Positions 7,470 to 49,527 of a DNA stretch of 64,000 bases are shown in pieces. The stretch is from Levilactobacillus zymae DSM 19395 (lineage in GTDB: Bacteria > Bacillota > Bacilli > Lactobacillales > Lactobacillaceae). Position numbers and translations under genes: made by a program. Where the stretch lies: positions 1-64,000 of the forward strand of contig NZ_AZDW01000016.1 of the NCBI RefSeq assembly GCF_001434115.1. Direction: 5' to 3'. How positions within the stretch are numbered: position 1 is the stretch's first letter; each line of letters starts with the position of its first letter. The notes beneath the pieces were generated by a model that was not told the DNA's origin, made no database searches, and saw only the letters and a program-made list of their open reading frames with translations.

Positions 7470-7886
7470 TCACTTGGCCGTCACATCACTCGCGTGGTCA
7501 CCGGGCAGACTGTAGATGGTCTCCCCCGTTTTCGAGTAATAGTACTTTGACCGAATTAACTGGCCCAAGTAATCTTTGTTATTTAACTGTTTGACTTCTA
7601 ATTTCAGCTTGGCATTGGTCTGCTTGGTCTGGGCCAGCTTCTGTTTACTGGTCGTGACCTGCTGATTCACGTGGTGCAAACTGGCGTTGGTCCGCACGAG
7701 TTGAATACCGAGGATCAACGCAAACACCGCAAAAACGGCTAAGATTCGGGCCATCCGCCGCACCCGGCGCCGTTTAAGCCCGTGATGCGTGTGCTTGGTC
7801 GCGACCTGTTGCCGAGCCAATCGTCGTGTGTACTCGTTTTCTAAGCGTTGCACTTTCGCCGTTTGCGGTTGTTTGCTATCCGCCAT
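7470..7886 (-). CDS. divIC: Septum formation initiator DivIC/FtsB family
   Basis: Bitopic divisome protein that, with FtsL and DivIB/FtsQ, activates septal peptidoglycan synthesis. The protein has a basic cytoplasmic N-terminus (RRVRRMAR), one membrane segment (ILAVFAVFALILGIQLV) and a coiled coil (NQQVTTSKQKLAQTKQTNAKLKLEVKQL is spread over this part), ending in the short extracellular segment usual for DivIC. I start at MADSKQPQ (138 residues), since the upstream 19 codons overlap the likely promoter zone. It sits alone between two terminator or repeat regions, with an extended -10 promoter at 7927-7935. Confidence 0.88.
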   Translation of the reverse strand: MADSKQPQTAKVQRLENEYTRRLARQQVATKHTHHGLKRRRVRRMARILAVFAVFALILGIQLVRTNASLHHVNQQVTTSKQKLAQTKQTNAKLKLEVKQLNNKDYLGQLIRSKYYYSKTGETIYSLPGDHASDVTAK

Positions 7887-7926
7887 ATCGTTCACCCCAC
7901 TGAACTTGACCAAATTAGTTAACTTG

Positions 7927-7935
7927 AGTATAGCA
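7927..7935 (-). promoter_or_regulatory. Extended -10 promoter of divIC
   Basis: TGCTATACT on the minus strand (core TATACT 7927-7932) about 40 nt upstream of the divIC start codon; no strong -35 is visible. Confidence 0.5.
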
Positions 7936-8162
7936 ACTTTCAAATTAACCGTCTAGCGGGTTAAGCATAATGTAAAACATTCGTCATATTCAATCGTCGA
8001 GCCACCCGACCATGCGCCGCTGAATCCTCTTCCCGAAGATTTAACGGGTGGGGCGAGATTCTTGTGACTAGTCTGGCTCAAAACTCAATCACCGATCAAA
8101 TAACTACTTAGTTATCGTCTAACTCGGAAAAACACATTCAAGTTACCGTCATAACGAGTGTA

Positions 8163-8318
8163 AGCTGGAGGGCCAGTCAGAAATGGGCTCAGGGGTGTCG
8201 TTTGTCTTAGCCGGCGTTTTTTTGCCGGGTTAGACAAAGGTCGGTCTTCAAGACCTGGTTTACGGGCTTGAAGCCGTACCCACCCCGTTCCAGCCCGTTT
8301 CTGACTGGCCTGGAAGCG
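8163..8318 (+). repeat. Family 1 structured element, copy 1
   Basis: A 156-nt element that recurs at 46160-46316. It folds into an outer stem P1 (8171-8189 with 8292-8310), an inner P2 (8192-8197 with 8281-8286, GGGGTG/CACCCC), a hairpin P3 (8201-8207 with 8232-8238; 8211-8215 with 8224-8228) and a hairpin P4 (8239-8241 with 8278-8280; 8243-8244 with 8274-8275; 8246-8252 with 8267-8273). Both copies share the ends AGCTGGAG and TGGAAGCG. Paired positions co-vary between copies, so structure is conserved. The T8184-G8297 pair is a wobble only if the plus strand is the RNA. Function unknown; it could be a dispersed ncRNA or a non-autonomous mobile repeat. Confidence 0.85.
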
Positions 8319-8344
8319 TTGAAATTCACTAGGTTGGCCTTTGA

Positions 8345-8617
8345 CTAGTCTTTGCGAAAGTCTTGGGCGTAGTCTTCCTTGACGATGGTGTACATCCGTT
8401 CGGCGTCTTCCTTCTTGGTGGTTTCCAGTAAGGCATCGACCTTGACCGTCAACGTTTTGTTCCCGAACTTGATGACTAATTCGTCGTTGGTCGCCACGTT
8501 ACTCGACGACTTAGCGACCTTACCGTTCACTAAGATTCGGCCCTTGTCCGCGATTTCCTTAGCGACCGAGCGCCGCTTGATGATGCGAGATACCTTTAAG
8601 AATTTATCTAAACGCAT
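8345..8617 (-). CDS. rqcP: S4-domain ribosome quality control protein RqcP
   Basis: Small RNA-binding protein (YabO/RqcP family, related to the C-terminal part of Hsp15). With RqcH it adds poly-alanine tails to stalled nascent chains on 50S subunits. The S4 fold is clear in [21 protein letters not shown] and [13 protein letters not shown], followed by a short tail. Ninety residues from the chosen start MRLDKFLK, which has GGAGG about 9 nt upstream; the four codons before it overlap the end of the flippase gene. The position next to mfd and the MurJ-like gene is as in Bacillus. Confidence 0.9.
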
Positions 8618-8618
8618 A

Positions 8619-10199
8619 TTATTTTCCTCCATGTTGGCTAATTTTTTGCCAGAACCGTAATAGTGTCGCCGCGTGGGGCAGCGTCAGCCATTCCCGAACG
8701 GTCAGCAACCGACAACTCAACGCGGTCACTAAAAAGAGACCTACGCCGACCCCAATCACCACAATCAGGGCGGCTCCTACGGCTAAACGACTGGTGTACA
8801 CCGCCGGCCAGGCCCACTGAAATAACCGGACCAGGCCCCGGACGCCGAGGGTCATCACGACCAGACAGGCCAGTAGTTTTCCCAGAAACGACCAGGTCCA
8901 AATTCCCGACCGTAACGTGGCCGCCGACCCAAACCAGATAACTAACGCCGTCACGCCCAGACTCAGGACGGTCAACGCGCTGGCTCCCAGTCCCCCGAAG
9001 GTTGCGACCGCCCAGTGGTTAGCGACCGCCTTAACGGCCAGCCCACTCAGCAGGGCCACCACGGTCAACCGGTACTGGTCCCGACTCTGAAGCACACTAT
9101 TATAAGTTTGAATCAATGTCGCGAGGATGATACTCAGCATGTAGACCGCCAGCATCCAGGCCCCCTGCGCGTTACCGAACAACAGCCGGTCGACCCAGGG
9201 CATCAGGCTGACCAATCCTGCGGTCGCGGCCGCCGCAATCACCAGTGCGATGCGCATCATGGTGGTGGTCAGCCGTTTGAAATCACGTAACCGGCCGCGG
9301 TTCAACGCCGCGGTCAGCGCCGGTAACAGCGACGTGGCAAAGGCCACCGCCACCACTAAGCCCAGTTGGACCAGCGGTTGGGCCCGGTCGTAGACCCCCT
9401 TGAGGTCCTTGGCCGCTAAATCGGAAAGCCCACCAGCGACCAGACCGTTCTTGACGGTAAACGAGTCGACCAGTTGCAGAAGGACCATCATGGCCGTCAG
9501 TAAGCAGAGCGTGCCGCCTTCTACTAGTAACCGTCGGCCCACGTGGGGCACCGGGGTCACGGGTCCCGTCAGCGGTTCGCGCCAACGTGGCAAGACCACC
9601 CAGGCCGCCACGGCCGCGATGGCTCCGCTACTCATGGCCCAGGCGCCCATCCGATAATCGGACCACCCGCGCCGGGTCGCCAGCACCGCCACCGTCAAGA
9701 TCACGACCACCCGGACGGTCTGTTCGACCACCTGGGAACGCGCCGTGGGCAGCATTTGAAAGCGTCCCTGATGATACCCCCGGTTCACGGACAGGTCGGG
9801 CATCAAGAGAAACATCCAGGCCACCATCCGAATCAGTGGCGTTAGCTGGGCATCCCCCATCCCCCGGGCTAACCCGGGCGCTCCCACCTGTAACCCAATA
9901 AAGATCACCAGGGCTAACCCCCAGGTCCAATGATAAATCTGGCGCGCGACCCGTTGTTGGCTGGGCAGGTCGGGCGCATCCGCGATGAGTTTGGAAATAA
10001 ACACGGGCAACCCACTCAACGCAAAGGTCATCCCAATGCCGTAGAGGGGATACACTTGTTGGTACACGTAGAACCCCGTGTTGCCGACTAAGTTCTGGAA
10101 GGGTACCCGGTAAACGGCACTCAACACCTTGGCGATAAACGCCGCGATCGACAACACTAGGGCGCCGCGCAGGGTCGTATTTACGTTATGGTGACCCAT
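8619..10199 (-). CDS. MurJ/SpoVB-like lipid-linked oligosaccharide flippase
   Basis: Polytopic membrane protein of the MVF/SpoVB family, likely to flip lipid II or another lipid-linked sugar across the membrane; B. subtilis YabM in the same position is a relative. The sequence from [12 protein letters not shown] (526 residues) is an alternation of hydrophobic segments with the conserved N-terminal pattern [30 protein letters not shown] split over the first two helices. The start is chosen by AAGGAGG 9 nt upstream; 37 upstream residues are unlikely to be translated. It overlaps the rqcP ribosome site. Substrate is inferred, not shown. Confidence 0.85.
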
Positions 10200-29429: not shown

Positions 29430-29640
29430 CTGATCAGAGTCTGTATCTTTTATCGTCGTAAGCGCCCCGTAGCCGACTATTTTTTGCTACGACAGTTCGG
29501 ATCCTCTTGGTGACCCGTCCCAGCTCACTAGGCCCTGTATGACCTAGCGCTTCGGCAACCGCCCCTTTCTCCCCGGTCGGCGTTCATACAGGAACTCGCG
29601 GAGATACTCATGTTGGTTGCAACCTCTATCATTCAATTGT
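29430..29640 (-). promoter_or_regulatory. Lysine riboswitch (L box)
   Basis: On the minus strand the leader shows the L-box signature segments in order: AGAGGTTGCAACC, ATGAGTA, GAGAAAGGGGCGGTTGCCG, a pair of arms (CTGTATGA / TCATACAG) and GAGCTGGGACGGGTCACC, then the terminator. Lysine binding stabilises the aptamer and promotes termination, so it should repress the whole lysA-to-asd cluster when lysine is plentiful. Confidence 0.9.
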
Positions 29641-45037: not shown

Positions 45038-45955
45038 CTAGGCTTGCACTTGTGCAATCAACGTTTGTAAACTCTCAATGCCGTACCGGTCCATCGCGGC
45101 GGGCAGGTCGCGCACGATGTCGGTACAGGCCGTGGGGTGCCCATAGGTCGCGGCCCCGACTTCGACCGCGTTAGCCCCCGCCAAGTAAAATTCTAGCACG
45201 TCTTCGGGCGTAAAGACTCCGCCCACCCCGATAATCGGCAACGCGGTGTGCTGGCGGACTTGGTGAATCATCCGCACGGCTAGCGGGTGAATTGCCCGTC
45301 CCGACAAGCCGCCGGTTCCGTGCGCCAAGATGGGTCGCCGGGTAGTCAGATCGATGCCCATCCCCGTCAGGGTGTTAATCATGGTCAACCCGTCGGCGCC
45401 CCCGGCTTCGGCGGCCAGGGCGATTGGGACGATATCCGTCACGTTCGGGGTCAACTTCATGAAGACCGGTTTGGTCACCGCCGTGGTGATGGCCCGGGTC
45501 AGGTCCTCGACCGTCTGGGGATTCGTGCCAAACGCCAGGCCACCGTGGGTAACGTTAGGACACGAGATGTTGATTTCCAGTAGTTTCACGTTAGGCACGG
45601 CGTCAAGTTGTCGGGCCACACTCACGTATTCCGCGACACTGGCGCCGGCGACACTCCCCACGATGGGTAAGGTCGGGTAGTGGGTGGCTAACCAGGGTAA
45701 CTTGTCACTCACCACGTTGGCCACCCCGGGATTCTTCAACCCGATGGCGTTCAACCATCCCGCGGCCGTCTCCGCCGTGGTCGGTCGGGGGTTCCCCGCC
45801 TTGGGTTGGGCCGTGGTCGACTTGATCACCAACCCGCCCAACGCGTTGAGGTCTAATTTCTGCGCCAATTCTTGACCGTAGGCGGCCGTCCCACTCGCCG
45901 GCATGATGGGGTTCTGTAGGGTTACCCCCGCTAAATTCACACTTAATCGTCCCAT
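45038..45955 (-). CDS. pyrD: Dihydroorotate dehydrogenase, class 1B type
   Basis: FMN enzyme oxidising dihydroorotate to orotate. Catalytic Cys lies in LEINISCPNVTHGGLAFGT, a class 1B pattern; FMN-binding KSTTAQPKAGNP and GVGGVFTPEDV are present. 305 residues. Class 1B enzymes normally work with the PyrK electron-transfer subunit, but no pyrK is in this window. It is separated from carB by a structured repeat and has a possible promoter of its own (46059-46087). pyrF and pyrE do not follow it. Confidence 0.93.
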   Translation of the reverse strand: MGRLSVNLAGVTLQNPIMPASGTAAYGQELAQKLDLNALGGLVIKSTTAQPKAGNPRPTTAETAAGWLNAIGLKNPGVANVVSDKLPWLATHYPTLPIVGSVAGASVAEYVSVARQLDAVPNVKLLEINISCPNVTHGGLAFGTNPQTVEDLTRAITTAVTKPVFMKLTPNVTDIVPIALAAEAGGADGLTMINTLTGMGIDLTTRRPILAHGTGGLSGRAIHPLAVRMIHQVRQHTALPIIGVGGVFTPEDVLEFYLAGANAVEVGAATYGHPTACTDIVRDLPAAMDRYGIESLQTLIAQVQA

Positions 45956-46159: not shown

Positions 46160-46316
46160 AGCTGGAGGGCCAGGCAGTAATGGGCTCAGGGGTGTCATTT
46201 ATCTTGGCTGGTGGGTCTTCAGCCAGCTTAGATAAAGGTCGGCCTTTGAGACCTGAACTTTGGGCTCAAAGCCGTGCCCACCCCGTTCCAGCCCGTTACT
46301 GCCTGGCCTGGAAGCG
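46160..46316 (+). repeat. Family 1 structured element, copy 2
   Basis: Second copy of the element at 8163-8318. Stems: P1 46168-46186 with 46290-46308, P2 46189-46194 with 46279-46284, P3 46198-46204 with 46230-46236 and 46207-46211 with 46223-46227, P4 46237-46239 with 46276-46278 and 46244-46250 with 46265-46271. Compared with copy 1, P1 (T-A to G-C, A-T to T-A), P3 (G-C to A-T) and P4 (C-G to T-A, A-T to G-C) show paired substitutions. T46239-G46276 is a wobble only on the plus strand. It lies 34 nt beyond the carB stop. Confidence 0.85.
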
Positions 46317-46350
46317 CTGATTTTCAACCTTTAACTTACTAAATACACTT

Positions 46351-49300
46351 TTACAACGCCTGCGTCACAAACGACCGGGATTCCAGTACCTGCAGAATTG
46401 CCGCCACGGTATCCAGTGCCGTAAACAGCGGCACCCCGTGGGCAATCGACGTGTTACGAATCACCGCCCCATCGTCGGCCGCATGACCCTCATCCGAAAT
46501 CGTGTTGATGACCACCTGAATCTGGCCGGCCTCCATTTGTTGCAGCAGGTCATGTTCGCCGGTATCGATCTTGTCAACGACCCGGACCGGCAACTGATTT
46601 TGCGTCAGGCAGGCCGCCGTCCCCGGTGTCGCCAAGAGTTGATAGCCCAGATTGTGGAACCGCCGGGCCAACTTCACGGCTTCCGGTTTATCGGCATCGC
46701 GCACGGTGATCAGCACGTTGCCGTGACTCGGTACGTGGAGTTTAGCGGCTTCGAACGCCTTGTAGAGCGCCTTGGCCAGCGTCCGGTCACTCCCCATGAC
46801 CTCCCCGGTCGACTTCATTTCCGGTCCCAACAGGCTATCCACCCGGTTGAGCTTGGAGAACGAGAAGACTGGGGCCTTCACGTGGACCAACGCGCCCGGC
46901 TGGACCAGGCCATCGTGGTACCCTTGGTCGCGTAACGATTGTCCCAGAATCACCCGGGTCGCGACCTGGGCCATCGAAATGTCGGTGACCTTGCTTAAGA
47001 ACGGCACCGTCCGGCTAGCCCGCGGGTTGACTTCGATCACGTAGACCTGGTCGTCGTGAATCACGAATTGAATGTTCATCATACCGATACAGTTCAACGC
47101 CTTGGCCAACTGTTCCGTATAGGTCACGATTTGGGCCTGGACCGCCGCCGACAGGGACTGTGGCGGATAGACCGCCATCGAGTCGCCGGAGTGGACCCCG
47201 GCGCGTTCGATGTGTTCCATGATGCCCGGGATCAGGACCGTTTCCCCGTCACAAATCGCGTCCACCTCACATTCCTTGCCCACCAGGTACCGGTCAATCA
47301 GCACCGGATGGTCGTGGGACACCTGGACCGCGTTATGCATGTAGTGGTCCAGGTCGGCGCGCTGCGTCACGATTTCCATGGCCCGGCCCCCTAACACGTA
47401 GCTGGGACGGACTAATACGGGATAGCCGATGCGGTCGGCAATCGCCAGGGCCGTGGCTTCGTCACTCGCCGTGTCCCCCGCCGGTTGGGGAATCCGCAGG
47501 TCTTCAATCACCCGGTTGAAGGCGTCCCGGTCTTCGGCCCGGTTAACGTCGGCCACACTGGTCCCCAAGATCTTGACGCCGTGACGTTCCAGCGGAGCCG
47601 CCAAGTTGATGGCGGTCTGCCCGCCGAACTGGACGATGACCCCCAACGGTTGTTCGAGGTCGATCACGTTTAAGACGTCTTCGATCGTCAACGGTTCAAA
47701 ATACAACTTGTCGGAGACGGAAAAGTCGGTCGACACGGTCTCGGGATTACTGTTCATGATGATGGCCTCGTAGCCGGCCTTTTGAATCGCCTTGACCGAA
47801 TGGACCGTGGCGTAATCGAACTCCACCCCCTGGCCGATGCGAATCGGGCCGGACCCCAGGACCAGAACGGACGGCCGGTCACTGACCGTACTTTCGTTTT
47901 CCTGCTCGTAGGTGCCGTAGAAGTACGGCGTGCTCGAGGCAAATTCCCCGGCACAGGTGTCGACCATCTTGTAGACCGGGGTCAGGTGATGGGCCGCTCT
48001 GAAGGCCCGGACCTGATCAGCGGTTTCGTGCCAGAGGTCTGCCACCGTCGCGTCGGCAAACCCGTTGCGTTTCGCCGTGGTCAGAACCGCTAAGTCGTCC
48101 ACGTGAGCGCTCAGATTGTGTTCCAGTTCGATAATGTGGAGGAGTTTATCCAGGAAGAAGACGTTGATCTGCGTCAGCTCGTGCAGACGGTCCAGTGAGT
48201 AACCGCGGCGCAGGGCTTCGGCCAGGTAAAACAACCGGTCGTCCTGAGCGTGGACCAGTTTGTCTTCGAGCGTGGCCTGGTCGACCGTGCTCAACGCCGG
48301 CTCGGCCAGATGGTGCACGCCGATCTCCAGCGACCGCACGGCCTTCAACGTGGCCTCTTCGATATTCCGGCCAATCGCCATGACTTCCCCGGTCGCCTTC
48401 ATCTGGGTCCCTAGCCGCCGGTCGGCGTGGGTGAACTTATCAAACGGCCAGCGCGGAATCTTGCAGACCACGTAGTCCAGGGCCGGCTCGAACTGCGCGT
48501 AGGTGGTCCCGGTGACCGGGTTCTTGATCTCGTCGAGGTGCAGGCCCACCGCAATTTTGGCGGCCATCTTGGCGATCGGGTACCCGGTGGCCTTCGAGGC
48601 TAAGGCCGACGAGCGGCTGACCCGCGGGTTGACCTCAATCACGTAGTACTGAAAACTCTGCGGGTCGAGGGCCAGTTGGACGTTACAGCCCCCTTCAATC
48701 TTTAACGCCCGGATGATGCGTAAGGCTGCATCCCGTAACATCTGAACTTCGCGGTCCGCCAGGGTTTGAATCGGGGCGTAAACGATGGAGTCGCCGGTGT
48801 GGATCCCCACGGGGTCGAAGTTTTCCATGCCACAGACCACCAACGCGTTATCCGCGGCGTCGCGCATGACTTCGAATTCGATTTCCTTGTAGCCGGCGAT
48901 GCTCTGTTCGATCAGCACCTGGGTGACCGGCGACAGGGCCAAGCCGTTTTCGGCAATCGTCCGTAATTCGGCGGCGTTGTTGGCGATGCCGCCTCCGGTA
49001 CCGCCCATGGTAAAGGCTGGCCGGACGATGACCGGATACCCTTCCTGTTGCGCAAAGGCCAGTGCTTCGGCCACCGTGGTCGCGCTACTCGACGCCGGGA
49101 CCGGCTCGCCCAGCTTCTCCATCAATTCCTTGAACTGTTCGCGGTCCTCGGCCTGGTCGATGGCGCTGAGTTTGGTCCCCAACAACTCAATTTTCAATTC
49201 ATCGAGGATACCCGACTTCGAGAGTTCCATGGCCATGTTCAAGCCCTGTTGGCCCCCCAACGTCGGTAGGATGGCGTCGGGGTGTTCCTTGCGCAAAATC

Positions 49301-49527
49301 TGCGAGACGAATTCGAGGGTGATGGGTTCTAGATAGACCTGGTCGGCAATTTCCTTGTCGGTCATGATCGTGGCCGGGTTGGAGTTGACCAGTACCACCT
49401 GGTACCCCAGTTCCTTCAACGCCAGGCACGCCTGGGTGCCGGAATAGTCAAATTCCGCGGCCTGACCGATGATAATCGGTCCGGACCCAATCACCATAAT
49501 TTTATGAATATCCGTGCGTTTTGGCAT
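46351..49527 (-). CDS. carB: Carbamoyl-phosphate synthase large subunit
   Basis: Makes carbamoyl phosphate from bicarbonate, ATP and ammonia supplied by CarA. 1058 residues with two ATP-grasp halves, each starting with the [20 protein letters not shown] or [20 protein letters not shown] type motif, two [20 protein letters not shown] / [15 protein letters not shown] segments, and a C-terminal allosteric domain. Its ATG overlaps the carA stop. Belongs to the pyrR-B-C-carA-carB operon. Confidence 0.97.

Follow-up and report, generated by a model that had tools for sequence, protein, structure and literature searches.

Two copies of one structured intergenic element are present in the window, that is, the whole stretch of 64,000 nucleotides of Levilactobacillus zymae DSM 19395 analysed here, and across a four-genus alignment one multibranched fold covaries on the + strand. 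The balance of probability is about even that the element belongs to a large Lactobacillaceae family of mobile genes for non-coding RNA, which would be transcribed and act as RNA. This reading, with a function exerted as RNA, is favoured over that of a cis-regulator.

The two copies in the window

The first-pass annotation had described an intergenic element at 8163-8318 that recurs at 46160-46316 with the same fold, and both copies were indeed found at these places, on the + strand and alignable over the whole core; open reading frames of at least 80 aa overlapping 8163-8318 or 46160-46316 were not found. Five paired differences between the copies had also been listed, and all of them were verified by eye. 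From copy 1 to copy 2 they are T-A to G-C at 8177/8304 and A-T to T-A at 8182/8299 in P1, G-C to A-T at 8204/8235 in P3, and two pairs in P4, where CTTCAAG/CTTGAAG becomes CTTTGAG/CTCAAAG. The feature at copy 1 exceeds the 156 nt noted at first, its core sitting within a mobile element of 281 bp. The features are given below with their evidence in brackets, R1 being a covariance model of 162 positions and 51 pairs whose source is 33 sequences of the genus.

8068..8348, + strand: mobile element of copy 1, a degenerate MITE, from CTAG 8068-8071 to CTAG 8345-8348, 281 bp (sequence, alignment of relatives)
8072..8100, + strand: left end of copy 1, degenerate, related to the family end RGYCTGTCTTAAAACTCAATCACCG (flanks of own-genome copies; intact ends elsewhere)
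8163..8318, + strand: structured RNA core of copy 1 (R1 match 8163-8324, 177.6 bits; fold)
8172..8189, + strand: P1 5' arm, pairs with 8292-8309; hypervariable among copies, mostly still paired (fold, covariation)
8192..8197, + strand: P2 5' arm, pairs with 8281-8286; a conserved internal loop separates P1 and P2 (fold, covariation)
8201..8238, + strand: P3 hairpin; both-sided change in 12 of 13 pairs (fold, covariation)
8239..8280, + strand: P4 hairpin; both-sided change in 12 of 15 pairs (fold, covariation)
8281..8286, + strand: P2 3' arm (fold, covariation)
8292..8309, + strand: P1 3' arm (fold, covariation)
46160..46316, + strand: structured RNA core of copy 2 (R1 match 46160-46322, 170.6 bits)

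Copy 1 is flanked by an S4-domain gene (rqcP/yabO-like, 8345-8632, - strand), whose stop codon is overlapped by the right CTAG (8345-8348) of the element, and by divIC (7470-7943, - strand), as assigned by Pfam (S4, DivIC). Copy 2 lies between carB (46351-49527, - strand) and a dihydroorotate dehydrogenase gene (45038-45955, - strand), likewise assigned by Pfam, and its terminal repeats are beyond recognition. The carB protein shows 88% identity to its counterpart in Lactiplantibacillus (Lpb.) garii and 87% to the one in Lpb. pingfangensis. Both copies are antisense to the surrounding genes. When the 64-kb window was scanned with R1, 21 rows were obtained, led by the two copies with the scores listed above and followed by the copies' own reverse strands (23 and 21 bits) and by hairpins of at most 20 bits. 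An intrinsic terminator, with a GC-rich stem and a U-run, was ruled out for the window copies, as a T-run after P1 is missing in them on either strand.

Fold and covariation

Compared with shuffles, the RNA fold of the + strand reaches z-scores of -11.2 (copy 1) and -9.7 (copy 2), and the complementary strand also folds, with z-scores of -10.1 and -7.9 respectively. The architecture comprises P1 (17-18 bp), a conserved asymmetric internal loop in which UCAG stands opposite CGUUCCAG, both conserved and unpaired, then P2, which leads into a three-way junction formed with P3 and P4. At the junction before P3 (window 8198-8200) either UCG or AAA is found according to the core, a block alternative that is present in at least two genera.

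Covariation was counted in alignments of which A2 and A7 were produced by plain MAFFT and A3-A6 are biased to the structure of R1, and the nulls, obtained by shuffling and by sliding the structure, ignore the kinship of the rows. Alignment A7 holds 63 rows of four genera and plasmid copies, counting L197, a wrong-strand noise row. The proposal that the fold is kept by compensatory change was borne out in this alignment, where 751 cells with both-sided change were counted against 220.8 +/- 14.7 on shuffling, none of 500 shuffles reaching any of five measures, and where both-sided changes occur in 46 of the 51 pairs. Paired cells amount to 93.8% of 3092 in A7, compared with 70.8% on shuffling and 33-51% for slid structures; in a 33-row alignment covariation is seen in 39 of the 51 pairs. 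It had been said that further copies breaking the pairing would speak against the fold, and here the picture is divided: wholesale breakage is not seen, yet some single cores carry many broken pairs.

In the paired cells of the + strand G-U outnumbers A-C, by 106:30 in A7 without L197 and by 131:42, 33:9 and 103:46 in three model-fitted sets, which indicates that the + strand is the folded strand. This tolerance of G-U on one strand, together with the conserved unpaired motifs, speaks for recognition of the folded strand.

Variability of P1 and pairing copy by copy

The outer helix, P1, is hypervariable among copies. In the own genome 37 distinct P1 5' arms were counted in 72 rows (window copy 1 being entered twice), in genome G022 20 in 31 rows, and in six other genomes 47 arm strings in 64 rows, one of these strings standing for three partial hits whose arm is empty. 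All 19 rows of genome G171 differ in their P1 arms; in 12 of these rows each of the 13 counted positions is paired, and the rest miss at least one. Mosaic blocks occur among the copies and suggest exchange between them.

Such variability could also have a cause at the level of DNA, namely template switching or repair templated by a hairpin, or a use of the hairpins as DNA in transposition, with no RNA function at all. The two P1 arms repeat each other in inverted form almost perfectly while their letters are unlike among most copies, as arm-to-arm copying could yield, and the mosaic blocks point in the same direction. Arm-templated repair alone could keep the P1 arms matched, but it leaves unexplained the conserved loops and the G-U asymmetry, G-U being about three times as frequent as A-C on one strand. 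Beyond P1, moreover, conserved unpaired motifs and helices of many pair types are kept, and DDE-type transposition ends, the type recognised here, do not require folded single strands, so that a DNA-level cause is judged rather improbable.

The private changes in 41 copies of family 1 in the own genome are pair-preserving in 22 of 30 cases and pair-breaking in 8, which is a raw count with no neutral expectation alongside. Ten of the 22 are both-sided, nine are wobble changes and three are changes to Watson-Crick pairs; three of the ten both-sided ones are those of window copy 2 in P1 and P3. Orthologous cores were compared with those of sister species at 15 places, seven of which were taken as true orthologues (left flank and core alignable) and eight set aside, including one with an alignable core and an unalignable flank. 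In the seven, 29 of 50 changed pairs are still paired (12 double, 17 wobble) and 21 are unpaired, eight of these 21 falling in one degenerate core, the second core of locus L070. The core is better conserved than its own left flank in three of the seven orthologues and not in the other four. As this comparison is mixed, it is not asserted that every single copy is under constant selection.

It is quite unlikely that the element is an ordinary selfish repeat of the ERIC, BOX or REP kind, in which the fold would be useful to master copies only and individual copies would be functionless and decaying. The excess of pair-preserving over pair-breaking private changes, as the raw count that it is, and the presence of R1 matches in at least 12 genera argue against such a repeat; the dispersed copies, their species-variable sites, the many broken pairs in the second core of L070 and the existence of L091, a 36-bit fragment, are what it would lead one to expect.

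Copy number and distribution

In the own genome R1 gives 72 places at E <= 0.01, 70 of them below 1e-10, which corresponds to about 70 dispersed, mostly intergenic copies; blastn with copy 1 finds at least 40 near full-length places there, among the best 40 of 63 candidates. The counts for genus, family and order are lower bounds, with 83, 14 and 9 candidates scored per genome respectively. Within the genus at least 33 of 35 genomes are matched, the own genome included, and six of them have at least 83 places. A search of Lactobacillaceae with a covariance model, which the first-pass annotation had recommended, was run with R1 and matched at least 54 of 201 genomes of the family, in at least 12 of 40 genera. 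In an order-wide draw at least 13 of 295 genomes were matched, twelve within the family and one outside it at a borderline E of 9e-6. Among 24 named lactic-acid-bacterial loci there are three with an R1 match, in Lpb. pingfangensis, Companilactobacillus hulinensis and, weakly, Lacticaseibacillus daqingensis.

Cores are carried by plasmids as well. With blastn the core of locus L286 was found in 16 plasmids of Lpb. plantarum, pentosus and paraplantarum, the two examined being confirmed by R1, and the core of L312 in two Levilactobacillus brevis plasmids, both confirmed by R1, while the core of L303 gave two partial plasmid matches. Plasmid searches with the window core and with the cores of L044, L308 and L368 gave no match, and the left half of the MITE gave one chance row only. 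The plasmid gene tables contain no RNA genes at all and are therefore uninformative on annotation of the core. A phage origin was rejected, since the phage collection gave no match and two viral pattern hits were not confirmed by R1.

Mobile element, its ends and the candidate transposase

Ten intact elements of 277-306 bp, typically 289 bp, were recognised, of which the own genome holds nine and genome G012 the tenth. The core occupies their right half, and their terminal inverted repeats RGYCTGTCTTAAAA are bordered on both sides, in all ten, by CTAG or a YTAR form; CTAG is self-complementary, end repeat and target duplication being indistinguishable. The exact end repeat is present in three of the 35 genus genomes, namely the own genome, G012 and G013. 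Genome G012, which is of a sister species, also contains seven copies of an 859-bp IS (one of them 858 bp) with the ends CTAG-GGACTGTCTGAAAA and CTAG-GGTCCGTCTGAAAA and with two overlapping ORFs, which correspond to PF13340 (IS4/5 family) and PF01609 (DDE). Between the family-1 ends and the ends of this IS there are few mismatches in the first 14 positions.

Family 1 thus shows the marks of an IS5-type MITE, with IS-like terminal inverted repeats and its own transposase gene missing, and its copies look like MITE insertions. Because the element ends resemble the IS ends, an IS5-type transposase probably moves the family-1 copies. The search for PF01609 in the own genome gave no match; the mobiliser may have been lost from this genome, or another gene may serve. 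Mobilisation as a REP element by a Y1 (RAYT) transposase is unlikely, because the ends are of DDE type. Identity with a known transposon end, which had been raised as an objection to a structured RNA, holds in so far as the copies lie within a transposable element, but the intact terminal repeats stand outside the core and no catalogued element was found. Outside this clade terminal repeats were not identified save in G022, where the left flank of some core pairs shows, by eye, YTAG and a repeat related to the family-1 end.

Two further observations concern the ends and the IS5 family. A 228-bp pair of the family terminal repeats at G000:C17:31169-31396 has no R1 core and is apparently a core-less MITE with shared ends. 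Locus L373, on a Lacticaseibacillus paracasei plasmid, was considered as an autonomous version of the element, with a core beside an IS5 transposase gene, and was rejected: at 1480-2410 an IS5-family element instead breaks a core at TTAG in the P3 stem, the remainder of the core not being seen beyond it. IS5-family elements would find a target in the conserved CTTAG of P3.

Sites without the element in relatives

The sites of both window copies are empty in the nearest relatives. Among 30 rqcP loci (29 relatives and the window) the core is missing in 27 of the 29 relatives, the nearest included, and the rqcP-divIC gap between matched gene parts measures 48-226 bp in these 27, against 404 in the window. 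Five aligned relatives without the insert of copy 1 have, by eye, CTAA (four) or TTAA (one) at the insertion point. Two other species of the genus carry cores in the same gap: G047 has a different core (L248 1092-1280, - strand, 65 bits) and G003 a divergent pair (L253 822-1010, - strand, and 1286-1465, + strand, 61 and 44 bits). These cores are either separate insertions or descendants of an old one, and the gap may accordingly be a hot spot or the site of an old insertion with losses. At the site of copy 2 the core is missing in all three comparable relatives (G012, G013 and G021), the carB end used for this site having matched four of 35 genomes, the own genome included.

About 70 bp to the left of the copy-1 element (window 8000-8067), with the inverted repeat GAATCCTC...GAGATTC, are likewise missing in the aligned relatives, and this is perhaps a second small insertion at the site of copy 1.

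Arrangement and gene context

The 50 neighbouring core pairs at most 700 bp apart comprise 43 divergent (back to back), seven tandem and no convergent ones, in loci that were picked by strong R1 matches and not at random; the loci of genomes G098 and G070 are without pairs. Family 1 may descend from an ancestral two-core unit by loss of one of the cores. Outward pairs fit either one sense core per direction of transcription or a bidirectional pair of RNA genes. In genome G128 (L366 1001-1733 and L367 1001-1596) two or three tandem cores are followed by one divergent core. In G022 the spacers between divergent cores (L095 2132-2331, L092 2166-2452, L098 1824-2000) show by eye a terminator-like hairpin, which is directed away from one type of core and towards the other and is followed by a T-run in L095 and L092.

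The gene context was taken from a purpose-written simple ORF caller. The 71 cores of the own genome lie in 25 convergent, 37 co-directional and 5 divergent gaps, with one side undefined in 4. The gene on the 3' side of the core is at a median distance of 55 nt and points to the core in 46 of the 71 cases. In co-directional gaps the own genome has 18 sense and 19 antisense cores; the respective counts are 7 and 9 for G022 and, over six other genomes, 12 and 18. Orientation toward the genes is thus unbiased, which disfavours a cis-regulator of neighbours, and a cis-regulatory leader or riboswitch was rejected on account of inconstant position and orientation. In the own genome eight of 71 cores share at least 60 nt with an ORF of 100 aa or longer; for two of these the ORF measures at least 150 aa and starts within the core. 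Cores wholly within an ORF of more than 150 aa number one of 31 in G022 (L099) and one of 64 in the six other genomes (L314), and one Levilactobacillus brevis plasmid core is inside an annotated CDS.

A sigma-A-like promoter conserved across genera was not found upstream of the cores, so that an own promoter common to the genera was rejected; the own-genome copies alone have a TATAAC-like stretch at -13 to -8. The chief gap in the case for an independent RNA gene is this absence of cross-genus conservation in the promoter signal.

This gap also bears on a different reading, in which the core would be a cis-acting device of the transcript: in either direction the last core passed would be sense, and it would fold and shield or modulate the transcript. 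The known models for such a device are HK022 put, EAR and REP RNA, which serve processive antitermination, insulation or 3'-end stabilisation. A cis device of this kind seems doubtful, with arguments on both sides. With outward pairs, transcription from either side does leave the element through one sense core, the 3'-side gene of the own-genome cores is close and mostly faces the core, divergent gaps account for only 5 of the 67 own cores with both neighbours called, and the missing promoter conservation is in keeping with it. The near equality of sense and antisense cores in co-directional gaps speaks against it, as do the antisense position of both window copies and the lack in them of a T-run after P1, by which they are not intrinsic terminators.

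Known RNA families and comparable systems

A scan of both copies against Rfam 15, as had been advised, gave nothing at the gathering threshold on either copy, the window holding elsewhere only a lysine riboswitch (29452-29636, - strand, 83.9 bits). Five sub-threshold rows fell on the two copies, with E from 0.6 to 10. In ten diverse loci of several genera Rfam 15 likewise gave no match to the core; apart from one CRISPR repeat row below threshold (E 0.2), the scan showed a T-box beside, not in, one core. This T-box leader adjoins a core in G171 (L286 1253-1464, - strand). The earlier suggestion that the element could already be in Rfam or be new can be decided within the libraries searched: the first part fell, with the ten further loci included, and the second stands. 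It is very improbable indeed that a divergent member of a catalogued family, such as a riboswitch, a T-box or a Lacto-* motif, is concerned, for all the aptamer-like size and complexity of the core, given that Rfam 15 has no match above threshold on the copies or the ten loci and that a constant linked gene was not seen among the copies examined. A description of the element in the literature was not found, in a search that most subscription journals lay outside, so prior publication is possible.

The element resembles ERIC, YPAL, NEMIS, BOX, RUP and REP/BIME, which are short, non-coding, mostly intergenic, present in tens to hundreds of copies and in many cases foldable as RNA. In contrast to ERIC/BOX/REP-like repeats, it has a multibranched fold, cross-genus covariation in one family, a hypervariable P1 and outward pairs. 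It shares with IS5-family MITEs a length of 277-306 bp, the missing transposase gene, the IS5-type terminal repeats and the CTAG/YTAR ends, and it differs from them in carrying a conserved structured RNA and in being found far beyond the clade with recognised ends. Structured RNAs tied to mobile elements are known in HEARO/omega RNA of IscB/TnpB and in the bridge RNA of IS110. These have in common with the present element a conserved multistem RNA within a mobile element, but the intact elements described here have no protein gene and their ends are of DDE type. The internal loops are nearly constant among copies, and a guide is thus not visible.

Foldable mobile intergenic repeats are common in bacteria, and families of stem-loops have been tabulated, for example Efa-1 of E. 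faecalis with 163 nt; in the accessible part of that survey L. johnsonii is the lactobacillus treated, with the family Lac-1 of 231 nt, type G (PMC2267715). The present element is set apart from these repeat families by the descriptions in that part of the survey, not by sequence. Structured RNAs of Lactobacillales have been described comparatively under the names Lacto-rpoB, Lacto-usp, Lacto-int and L17 downstream element in the accessible part of Weinberg 2010 (PMC2864571); those of them with Rfam numbers give no match, and Lacto-int, listed there with no Rfam number, is outside this comparison. As a foldable mobile repeat the element is of a known kind; what is new is the combination of a multibranched fold backed by covariation, a spread within one bacterial family, outward pairs and a clamp that varies.

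Proposed mode of action and significance

If the element is a mobile non-coding RNA, an IS5-type transposase would supply transposition in trans, and the core is predicted to be transcribed. A host factor would then read as RNA the fold and the unpaired motifs, that is UCAG and CGUUCCAG in the internal loop and UCG or AAA in the junction. Because the copies have no orientation preference toward neighbouring genes, a product acting in trans or for the element itself would be favoured over cis-regulation of neighbours. P1 would be mainly a clamp, which would be the reason why its letters drift while pairing persists. A more specific form of this reading may be put forward tentatively: a family-wide mobile RNA with outward pairs of a 160-nt structured RNA, a copy-specific paired clamp and borrowed IS5-type transposition, in dozens of copies per genome, could act as RNA on a host machine and be a bacterial equivalent of SINE-type RNA genes, the machine in question being RNA polymerase, the ribosome or an RNA-binding protein.

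The principal bacteria of foods and probiotics belong to the Lactobacillaceae, and a structured RNA that occurs by the tens in a genome, both chromosomal and plasmid-borne, and matches nothing in Rfam 15 represents an annotation gap which is checkable by RNA-seq. The strength of the covariation makes a function of the folded strand a testable question, and in its variable yet paired P1 the family offers natural compensatory mutants by the dozen.
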